A stretch of 64,000 nt of DNA, from contig NZ_VCQT01000045.1 in the NCBI RefSeq assembly GCF_005938655.1, positions 186,001 to 250,000 of the forward strand. Reading direction: 5' to 3'. This document shows positions 42,540-45,549 of this stretch, in pieces. This DNA comes from Alloalcanivorax gelatiniphagus (lineage in GTDB: Bacteria; Pseudomonadota; Gammaproteobacteria; Pseudomonadales; Alcanivoracaceae). The notes below the pieces were generated by a model that saw nothing but the letters and a program-made list of their open reading frames with translations, ran no database searches and was not told the DNA's origin. The stretch's first letter is position 1. Each line of letters opens with the position of its first letter. Position numbers and translations under genes: made by a program.

Positions 42540-42603
42540 GTAGGAGCGACTTTAGTCGCGATGACGATGGCACCCAGAGGATCGCGGCTGAAGCCGCTCC
42601 TAC
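42540..42603. repeat. Inverted REP pair, one copy a variant
   Basis: 42540-42562 forward has the compensated stem GCGACTTTAGTCGC; 42581-42603 reverse has the common core. Paired base changes keep the hairpin. Confidence 0.88.
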
Positions 42604-42738: not shown

Positions 42739-43605
42739 TCAGGCGGCGATGGCGTTGCGAAGCTTTTTCAGCGCGTTGTTTTCAAGCTGGCGAATCCGCT
42801 CGGCGGACACGCCATATTCATTGGCCAGCTCCTGGAGCGTGGCTTTCTGGTCGGCCAGCCAGCGGCGTTCGAGAATGTCGCGGCTGCGTTCGTCCAGGGT
42901 CATGATCGCGGAGCCCAGCTGGCGGGAGCTGCGCTCCTGGTCGTCCTGCTCGGCCACCAGATCCGCCGGGTCGCTGTTATCGCTGTGCAGATAAGCGGCC
43001 GGTGACGGGATCGGGTTGTCCTCGTCGTCGTTGGTGGGGCCGTCGAAGCTGGCGTCAAAGGCGCCCAGGCGCCCTTCCATTTCCTTCACCTGGGCCGGGG
43101 TTACGCCCAGATCATCGGCCACCCGTTGCGCTTCCTCGGTGGTGAGCCGGGCAAGACGCTTTTTCTGGCCGCGCAGGTTGAAGAACAGCTTGCGCTGGGC
43201 CTTGGTGGTGGCCACTTTCACGATGCGCCAGTTCTTGATCACGTACTCGTGAATTTCCGCCTTGATCCAGTGCACCGCGAAGCTCACCAGGCGCACGCCT
43301 TTTTCGGGATCAAAGCGTTTCACCGCCTTCATCAGGCCCACGTTGCCTTCCTGGATCAGATCGCCCAGCGGCAGGCCGTAGCCGGTGTAGCTGCGCGCGA
43401 TGTGCACCACGAAGCGAAGATGGGCCAGCACCATGTTACGGGCGGCGTCGAGATCTTCCTGGAAGTACAACCGCTCGGCCAGCTGCCGCTCTTCGTCGAC
43501 GCTGAGCACCGGCACCGAGTTGACCGCGCGGATATACGCATCCAGGTCATGTCCTGGAACCGCCAGCGGCAACGCCTGGGCCTGTTGCAGTTGTTGGGTT
43601 GTCAT
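42739..43605 (-). CDS. rpoH: RNA polymerase heat-shock sigma factor RpoH (sigma-32)
   Basis: 288 aa from ATG at 43605 (GGGAGAAGGGAA upstream). Region 2 has [33 protein letters not shown] and [20 protein letters not shown]; the RpoH box QRKLFFNLR follows; region 4 has [28 protein letters not shown]. Directs chaperone and protease transcription. A perfect CIRCE operator overlaps the start of its predicted transcript. It stands next to ftsX-ftsE-ftsY as in most gammaproteobacteria. Confidence 0.97.
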
Positions 43606-43637
43606 TTCCCTTCTCCCTGGTTCTATTGGGACGGATA

Positions 43638-43664
43638 TTAGCACTCGGGTAATAGGAGTGCTAA
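43638..43664 (-). promoter_or_regulatory. CIRCE operator (HrcA site) at the rpoH promoter
   Basis: TTAGCACTC-N9-GAGTGCTAA with no mismatch to the CIRCE consensus, beginning 33 bp upstream of the rpoH start codon and 5 bp downstream of the predicted -10. HrcA bound here would block initiation. Confidence 0.93.
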
Positions 43665-43669
43665 TAGCC

Positions 43670-43699
43670 TGAATAGTTCCCTGCCATTCGTTTCATCAA
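43670..43699 (-). promoter_or_regulatory. Predicted rpoH promoter
   Basis: On the minus strand TTGATG (43699-43694), an 18-bp spacer and TATTCA (43675-43670). Weak match to sigma-70, but its position immediately upstream of CIRCE supports it. Confidence 0.5.
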
Positions 43700-43823: not shown

Positions 43824-43848
43824 CAAAACCGGCCCCCGGGCGGGGGCC
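43824..43848 (-). terminator. Terminator of ftsX
   Basis: Minus-strand stem GGCCCCC / GGGGGCC (plus 43831-43848) right at the ftsX stop codon, followed by GGTTTTGCG. Confidence 0.65.
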
Positions 43849-44828
43849 TAGAACTGGGGTTCGATGTCGCCCAGGTGACGGCTCACCGCCAGCCAGGCCC
43901 CGAGCAGCCCCAGGGTGCCGCTGAACAGCGGTAAAACAAACACGGTGGATGGGCTCATGCCGGTAAGCGAGTGTTCACTTTCGTAGAGCCGCAGCAGCTC
44001 GTCGATGGGGCCGCCCAGCCACCACAGCGCCAGGCTCACCAGGATCAGCGCCAGCACGCCGCCGGCGAAGCCCACGCAGAAGCCGCTGTACAGGAACGGG
44101 CGGCGCACGAAACCGTCAGTACCGCCGACGATCTTGATCACCACGATCTCCTCCCGGCGGCTTTCGATGGCCAGCCGAACGGTGTTCACCACCACCAGCA
44201 CCACCGCCAGGGCCAGGCCCAGGGTAAGCACGCTGATCATCCGGTCGCCCAGCTCGATAATGGCGTGCAGGCGCCGCACCCAGGCCACGTCGAGCTGGGC
44301 GTTGTCGACCTCCGGCACCGCGTTGAGCCGTCGCTGCAGGGCCTCCACCTGGCCTGGCGCCACGTTCTCCGGATAGACCACGATCAGCGGCGGCAGCGGG
44401 TTGTCGGGCAAGGCTTCCAGCACGTCGCCGAAGCCGGACAGGGTCTTGAATTCGTCCAGGGCCTGGGCGCGGGTGATCACCTCGGTGCGCGCCACCGTGT
44501 CGAACCCGTCCCACTCCCGGGCCAGGGCCCGCTGGCGGTCCTCGGCGGTGTCCAGTTTGAGGAACACGGACAGGTGCGCCTGGCCGTCCCAGCCCTTGGT
44601 GATGACGCGGGCATTGTCCATCAGCACCGCCAGCCCGGCGGGCAGCGCCAGGGCGATGGCGATCACCAGCACCGTCATCAGGGCGGCGGTGGGTGCCGCC
44701 GCCATGCGGCCCAGGGCATCGCCCAGGGAATCCCGGTGATGCTGGCGCCAGGCGGTGAGGCGGTCGCCCAGGGAGGTGCGGGTGCTGCGCGCGCCGGCGG
44801 GCCGGCGCTGGCGAGTGTTACGGGCCAC
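43848..44828 (-). CDS. ftsX: Cell-division ABC transporter permease FtsX
   Basis: 326 aa from GTG at 44828, which has GGGAGG 7 bases upstream and overlaps the ftsE end by 11 bases; a longer in-frame ORF start at 44897 lies deep inside ftsE. Long basic N-terminus, four membrane helices (MTVLVIAIALALPAGLAVL, LTLGLALAVVLVVVNTV, SGFCVGFAGGVLALILVSLAL, VLPLFSGTLGLLGAWLAV) and the periplasmic loop between the first two. With FtsE it activates septal amidases through EnvC-type partners. Confidence 0.95.
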   Translation of the reverse strand: MARNTRQRRPAGARSTRTSLGDRLTAWRQHHRDSLGDALGRMAAAPTAALMTVLVIAIALALPAGLAVLMDNARVITKGWDGQAHLSVFLKLDTAEDRQRALAREWDGFDTVARTEVITRAQALDEFKTLSGFGDVLEALPDNPLPPLIVVYPENVAPGQVEALQRRLNAVPEVDNAQLDVAWVRRLHAIIELGDRMISVLTLGLALAVVLVVVNTVRLAIESRREEIVVIKIVGGTDGFVRRPFLYSGFCVGFAGGVLALILVSLALWWLGGPIDELLRLYESEHSLTGMSPSTVFVLPLFSGTLGLLGAWLAVSRHLGDIEPQF

Positions 44829-45549
44829 GGCGGTCCTCCCGGGGGCGGGCGAAAAGGGCCAGGTCCTGGTCGCGCTGGGAGACGCCTTCCTCGCCATCGT
44901 GGATCAGCCGGCCCTCGCGCAGGGTCAGAAGGCGGTGCCGGTAGCGGGCGATCAGCGACAGGTCGTGGGTGGCGATCAGCACCGCCACGCCGACCCGGGC
45001 GAAATCGTGGAACAGGTCCATGATCTCGGCGCTCAGCGCCGGGTCCAGATTACCGGTGGGCTCGTCGGCGAGCAGCAGCGGCGGCTTGTTGACCACCGCC
45101 CGGGCGATGCCGATGCGCTGCTGCTCACCGCCGGAGAGCATGATCGGGTTGAGCTTTTCCTTGTCCAGCAGCCCCACCTTGTCCAGGGCCGCGCGCACCC
45201 GCTTGCCGATATCGGCCCGGGCGAAGCCGGCGATCACCAGCGGCAGGGCCACGTTGTCGAACACACTGCGGTCGAACAGCAACTGGTGGTTCTGATGCAC
45301 CATGCCGATCTTGCGGCGCAGGAAGGGGATATGCCGGCTGCCCACCCCGGTCAGGTTCTGGCCTTCCACGAACACCTGCCCCTGGGTGGGCCGTTCGATC
45401 ATCATGATCAGCTTCAGCAAGGTGGACTTCCCCGCCCCGGAATGCCCGGTCAGGAAGGTCAATTGCCCGGCGGGCAGCTCAAAACTGATCTGCCGCAGGG
45501 CGTCCTTGCCGTTCGGGTAGCGTTTGCCGACCCGGTCGAATTTGATCAT
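44818..45549 (-). CDS. ftsE: Cell-division ATP-binding protein FtsE
   Basis: 243 aa. Walker A GHSGAGKSTLLK (about 35-46), Q-loop MVHQNHQLL, signature LSGGEQQR, Walker B LLLADEPTGNLD and THDLSL. The C-terminal 20 residues (SQRDQDLALFARPREDRRGP) extend beyond the usual FtsE end. First gene of ftsE-ftsX; ftsY is 168 bp further upstream with a repeat element between. Confidence 0.96.
   Translation of the reverse strand: MIKFDRVGKRYPNGKDALRQISFELPAGQLTFLTGHSGAGKSTLLKLIMMIERPTQGQVFVEGQNLTGVGSRHIPFLRRKIGMVHQNHQLLFDRSVFDNVALPLVIAGFARADIGKRVRAALDKVGLLDKEKLNPIMLSGGEQQRIGIARAVVNKPPLLLADEPTGNLDPALSAEIMDLFHDFARVGVAVLIATHDLSLIARYRHRLLTLREGRLIHDGEEGVSQRDQDLALFARPREDRRGP

Follow-up and report, generated by a model that had tools for sequence, protein, structure and literature searches.

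The analysed DNA, a 64-kb stretch of the Alloalcanivorax gelatiniphagus genome referred to here as the window, carries the heat-shock sigma factor gene rpoH downstream of ftsX, the gene order also found in E. coli K-12. The rpoH ATG lies at 43605-43603 on the minus strand and the stop codon ends at 42739. The product scores 395.5 bits against TIGR02392 rpoH_proteo (cut-off 323.1), and its nearest named records are from Alcanivorax, with 89, 86, and 76% identity (L063-L065). In the region between the minus-strand genes ftsX and rpoH, a motif scan of the window finds a perfect CIRCE, TTAGCACTC-N9-GAGTGCTAA, matching 18/18 arm positions at 43638-43664. A gap of 32 nt separates it from the rpoH ATG, which is preceded by a purine-rich ribosome-binding stretch. 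The main elements are:

42739..43605, minus strand: rpoH, heat-shock sigma factor sigma32, 288 aa (TIGR02392, 395.5 bits; sigma70 regions 1.2, 2, and 4)
43638..43664, minus strand: CIRCE, predicted HrcA operator, a perfect match; numbered 1-27 in rpoH sense, from 43664 to 43638
43848..44897, minus strand: ftsX, upstream neighbour of rpoH (Pfam FtsX_ECD and FtsX)

The original prediction of a perfect CIRCE at rpoH is confirmed by these matches. The site is the only CIRCE in the window, both at 0 mismatches and at up to 3, and none appeared in 100 dinucleotide shuffles (0 expected). It combines an inverted repeat, an hrcA gene in the same genome and a heat-shock gene downstream. Another palindrome, the REP-like GTAGGAGCGGCTTCAGCCGCGA, is present in the window in 16 copies from 1669 to 63042 (e.g., 42540-42603) at up to 3 mismatches, with 0 expected; many of these copies form opposed pairs.

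The same prediction placed rpoH under the HrcA repressor, and the genome (4.2 Mb in 50 contigs, scanned in full) does encode it. One copy of hrcA is present (G000:C1), scoring 309.4 bits against TIGR00331 (cut-off 197.2), and its product has both the winged-helix domain PF03444 and the C-terminal domain. It is followed by grpE. A single rpoE gene exceeds its family cut-off, with 304.1 bits. CIRCE with up to 3 mismatches occurs genome-wide at just two places, rpoH and groES, so dnaK and grpE have no CIRCE of their own; of the additional genes proposed for scanning, groES was found to carry the operator and dnaK and grpE were not. Control of the hrcA-grpE-dnaK genes by CIRCE was considered and rejected, as neither the genome scan at this threshold nor a reading of the hrcA upstream region gave a site there. 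A conserved sigma32 promoter for hrcA was also rejected after alignment of 11 family members, several rows of which aligned poorly and in which only a LexA-like block was clearly kept; RpoH feedback on hrcA is therefore not claimed. This block, ACTGT-N8-CAGT, is the clearest conserved feature among the 11 aligned hrcA upstream regions and is located between hrcA and a divergent recN-like frame (L001, about 1015-1035, with 10 family relatives in alignment A1).

All 36 genomes of the family, including the present one, encode hrcA. CIRCE with up to 2 mismatches lies within 300 nt upstream of the rpoH match in 35/36, the remaining genome having no rpoH match, and upstream of groES in 34/36. Of the two genomes without a groES-linked CIRCE, one has no groES match; in the second, the site lies on another contig, close to its end. 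Altogether 71 of the family's 73 CIRCE sites are found at rpoH or groES. In this family, HrcA looks like a two-target repressor, acting on the chaperonin and on the heat-shock sigma factor.

The survey was extended to wider samples by counting CIRCE with up to 3 mismatches in about 500 nt upstream of rpoH, mostly in 561-nt stretches. The order sample of 126 genomes includes 125 with rpoH and 37 with hrcA; CIRCE precedes rpoH in 36/37 hrcA-positive vs. 3/88 hrcA-negative genomes, and the hrcA-positive sites with 0, 1, 2, and 3 mismatches number 23, 8, 4, and 1. The class sample holds 149 genomes, mostly one per family as judged by family labels, with rpoH in 138 and hrcA in 110; 135 of the rpoH-bearing genomes are new relative to the order sample. 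Here the site is present in 94/102 hrcA-positive vs. 5/33 hrcA-negative genomes (49, 32, 8, and 5 of the former at 0, 1, 2, and 3 mismatches). Both samples together give 130/139 hrcA-positive genomes vs. 8/121 without detected hrcA (Fisher p = 7e-52, with relatedness ignored), and a reversed-pattern control matched 0/274 upstream regions. Across the sampled class, the presence of hrcA strongly predicts a candidate CIRCE at rpoH. The site is thus conserved before rpoH in the family and, among hrcA-keeping genomes, in the order and class as well. The accompanying view that the two heat-shock systems are usually separate in gammaproteobacteria does not hold for the sampled lineages that keep hrcA.

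Exceptions run in both directions. Nine hrcA-positive genomes have no site by the rule applied (G129, G168, G181, G191, G219, G254, G261, G288, and G291), one of which, G254, contains a CIRCE-like repeat whose arms are 8 nt apart. Eight others have the site with no hrcA detected (G051, G112, G115, G171, G222, G238, G268, and G275), and some of these may be drafts missing the gene. G129 (C34:4874-5689), the sole hrcA-positive genome of the order sample lacking CIRCE at rpoH, also has the lowest primary rpoH score there, 358.1 bits. A second RpoH-like gene is found in G038 (C22:351243-352031); it scores 315.7 bits, below the cut-off, has no CIRCE and shares a contig with hrcA at a distance of about 10 kb. 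Among 80 named loci, CIRCE at 0-1 mismatch stands before rpoH in 16, including those of Alcanivorax, Haliea, Halioglobus, Luminiphilus, and Ketobacter, and in none of those titled Pseudomonas, Halomonas, Marinobacter, or Endozoicomonas.

The sequences around the operator were compared in a logo of 149 rpoH-linked sites, consisting of 15 from the family, 35 from elsewhere in the order and 99 from the class, of which 140 come from hrcA-positive and nine from hrcA-negative genomes. The block GGAAC(T/C)TTT is conserved at positions -15 to -7 before CIRCE. We take it to be a sigmaE -35 on the basis of the sigmaE consensus, and the E. coli P3 promoter shows the same element. GAAC begins 14-16 nt before CIRCE at 112/149 sites (15/15 in the family, 33/35 in the rest of the order and 64/99 in the class), whereas control windows average 1.9 of 148 and reach at most 7; as the class figure shows, CIRCE can be present without the sigmaE box. 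The corresponding -10 would fall inside the operator, at the usual spacing of 16 nt. The window reads GGAACTA-N16-TCCTA, which fits the E. coli P3 type of sigmaE-dependent rpoH promoter (GGAACTT-like -35, about 16 nt, TCnnA -10). Position 12, which is outside the CIRCE arms, is A at 118/149 sites, whereas its mirror position 16 is T at only 41/149.

A second promoter is predicted from the arms themselves. The TAA of the CIRCE right end runs on as AAT to give an extended sigma70 -10, TGCTAAAAT, with TG at positions 22-23, and this element sits 18 nt from TTAGCA at the opposite end of the operator. Position 30, outside CIRCE, is T at 136/149 sites and its mirror position is A at 22/149. The left arm carries the variant TTG (TTGGCA) at 27/149 sites vs. 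two of 149 with the mirrored CAA in the right arm; as a sequence change, TTAGCA to TTGGCA reads as an improved -35. A symmetric protein-binding site would require T30 and A12 to be mirrored, so their asymmetry supports the reading as a composite with promoter elements. The predicted promoter elements in the window are:

43674..43680, minus strand: predicted sigmaE (RpoE) -35, GGAACTA; GAAC position conserved at 112/149 sites
43653..43657, minus strand: predicted sigmaE -10, TCCTA (TCnnA), CIRCE positions 8-12; A at position 12 in 118/149
43659..43664, minus strand: predicted sigma70 -35, TTAGCA, CIRCE positions 1-6; 18-nt spacing to the -10
43635..43643, minus strand: predicted extended sigma70 -10, TGC-TAATAT (TGCTAATAT), CIRCE positions 22-27 plus 3 nt; T30 conserved
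43627, minus strand: approximate predicted sigma70 transcription start (A), placed by spacing; A reaches 0.48 at position 38 of the logo

The rpoH CIRCE is accordingly predicted to overlie two overlapping promoters, covering the sigmaE -10 and both sigma70 hexamers. GAAC, A12, and T30 occur together at 10/15 family, 30/35 other order, and 53/99 class sites, which makes the composite common but not universal. The original prediction had set CIRCE 5 bp downstream of a -10; the conserved promoter elements are instead in and around the operator, not upstream of it. Its overall interpretation therefore stands as regards hrcA, the CIRCE at groES and the association of hrcA with the operator, and falls on the position of the -10 and on the supposed rarity. 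Autoregulation of rpoH by sigma32 was rejected, as the logo has no CTTGAAA-like block upstream of CIRCE.

An exact form of the composite, GAAC-N10-12-TTRGCACTC-N9-GAGTGCTAA, was sought in 397 genomes of the phylum, with no arm mismatches except A/G at position 3. It occurs in 11, once in each and all within the same class, and the reversed control listed none among the 397; because the pattern is so strict, its absence outside the class is weak evidence. Nine of the 11 copies lie upstream of rpoH, one upstream of groES and one upstream of a ClpB-like frame. The last, identified by reading, is in G219 (L404, 1501-1542), where the genome's own rpoH has no CIRCE.

The layout at groES is different. 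Of thirty loci with the pattern, 28 were of sufficient length, and nine of these carry groES. In the family, each of the nine CIRCEs at groES directly follows a TTGACT promoter without a preceding GGAACTT, and T is found at position 30 in 0/9 (read by eye). With the groES operator behind a conventional promoter, the rpoH layout is no general property of CIRCE. In one genus, tandem CIRCE-like sites sharing four bases are present before groES (G016 C11:6946-6995 and G022 C27:194298-194347).

What the sequences show directly is where the sites lie, how they are arranged, how far they are conserved and that they go with hrcA; from this we infer HrcA binding, repression of both promoters, dependence on GroE and the order of events that follows. 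Most probably, the HrcA operator is superimposed on a dual sigmaE/sigma70 promoter of rpoH, such that HrcA kept active by free GroE blocks both promoters and stress releases them. In the unstressed cell, GroE-activated HrcA on CIRCE would keep RNA polymerase, with either sigma factor, off both promoters. Titration of GroE by unfolded proteins, or inactivation of HrcA by heat, would then free the operator and derepress rpoH and groESL together, after which the other heat-shock genes would be switched on by RpoH. Repression would return as GroE rises, closing a feedback loop, and the sigmaE envelope-stress input would reach rpoH only as far as HrcA permits. HrcA in Bacillus subtilis, Chlamydia trachomatis, and Helicobacter pylori is described as stimulated by GroE and losing DNA binding once unfolded proteins titrate GroE; in H. 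pylori, HrcA lies over core promoter elements and is heat-sensitive in its own right (PMC6032397). By analogy, HrcA of the present genome would sense GroE load too. A review reports that nitrogen starvation in Xylella raises hrcA more than 4-fold and rpoH 2-fold (PMC11764788). The joint rise would fit simple repression poorly, if Xylella has the site.

HrcA might bind with minor effect, CIRCE only trimming basal transcription and RpoH being set mainly after transcription, through translation and DnaK/FtsH-dependent decay, as in E. coli. Sigma32 activity and stability in E. coli are described as chaperone-controlled (PMC6032397), and the title of a paper on Agrobacterium assigns RpoH and HrcA differential and independent roles. 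However, the arms are perfect (18/18) in 72/139 hrcA-positive genomes (23 in the order, 49 in the class) despite a variable spacer, a pattern implying that selection for HrcA binding has been sustained; this makes a minor effect unlikely. The sigma70 promoter could alternatively lie upstream, with CIRCE downstream of its -10 as a transcribed roadblock, an arrangement that would repeat the one at groES in the same family and for which weak TTGATG and TATTCA-like words can be picked out by eye upstream in the window. Yet in the 45 nt upstream of CIRCE at the 149 sites, the sole conserved block is the sigmaE -35, GGAAC(T/C)TTT, with no conserved sigma70 hexamers, and it is TAAnnT at the 3′ edge of CIRCE that is conserved. 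The mechanical sigma70 scan listed no promoter upstream of rpoH either, at a threshold that the embedded promoter, with 8/12 hexamer matches by manual count, also falls below. Taken together, this renders an upstream sigma70 promoter very unlikely. It is scarcely credible that the palindrome is kept only because it serves as promoter sequence or folds into an RNA hairpin: most arm positions do overlap promoter hexamers and hrcA-negative relatives retain part of the arms (left 3.4/7 against 1.7 in shuffles, right 5.2/9 against 4.3), but CIRCE at up to 3 mismatches tracks hrcA (130/139 vs. 8/121), and the sigma70 start predicted from the logo lies beyond CIRCE, leaving that transcript without the hairpin, so that a hairpin role is set aside.

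The superimposed operator and dual promoter have partial counterparts in known systems. The class I regulon of the B. subtilis type, comprising the groESL and dnaK operons, shares with the present one the operator, the hrcA gene and the groESL target. In contrast, the second target here is the gene of the heat-shock sigma factor rather than the dnaK operon, and the operator forms one element with a predicted dual sigmaE/sigma70 promoter. In Geobacter sulfurreducens, a perfect CIRCE was predicted at -51 from the rpoH start codon (Rodionov et al., 2004; PMC545781, Table 8), upstream of rpoH as here and by the same logic. That case concerns a single deltaproteobacterium in which CIRCE is also present at hrcA-grpE-dnaK-dnaJ, and the passages on it describe no sigmaE composite (PMC545781). 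The rpoH P3 promoter of E. coli is transcribed by RpoE (PMC8103513). In the K-12 sequence, P3 reads GAACTT-N16-TCTGA between ftsX and rpoH, a place matching that of the sigmaE box in the window, but the E. coli rpoH upstream region has no CIRCE, its best match having 8 mismatches. A search for the HrcA family gave matches in 7/14 control genomes, E. coli not among them. The literature searched, by title, abstract or selected passages, contains no report of CIRCE at a gammaproteobacterial rpoH or of its fusion to a sigmaE promoter. The operator is known, and its target is known in one distant genus; here it belongs to a composite promoter conserved across much of the class. The predicted linkage of HrcA to RpoH is well supported by the genome sequences.

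If the composite works as read, the repressor- and sigma-based heat-shock systems would be joined into a single cascade across much of the Gammaproteobacteria, in which GroE load gates the synthesis of the master sigma factor. The E. coli view, in which HrcA is absent and RpoH is set mainly after transcription, may be a derived state. It is a tentative possibility, a little short of an even chance, that sigma70, sigmaE, and HrcA acting on one 45-bp element were the ancestral control of rpoH in Gammaproteobacteria, with HrcA gating even the sigmaE promoter. After the loss of hrcA, in Escherichia and Pseudomonas for example, the promoters would have survived as relics while control of RpoH shifted to translation and proteolysis. 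Under such an ancestral three-input switch, a full rise of RpoH in envelope stress would require GroE overload as well.

The simplest history would be an ancestral composite in the class, with CIRCE lost wherever hrcA was lost. A sigmaE box (6/7 match, with TCnnA) is found in 47 of 114 hrcA-negative regions without CIRCE, where shuffles lead to an expectation of 1.25, and it is in these 47 regions that the partial arm matches given above were counted. Such residual matches can mean decayed operators or a shared promoter constraint. Repeated hrcA loss also provides natural comparisons. In the mixed family f23, G119 has hrcA and CIRCE, and G057, G092, and G142 have neither; in f45, G096 has both, and G123 and G146 neither. 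Two of the 47 regions, in G089 and G102 (L175 and L210), have near-perfect CIRCE arms with spacers of 10 and 8 nt, perhaps an early stage of operator decay.
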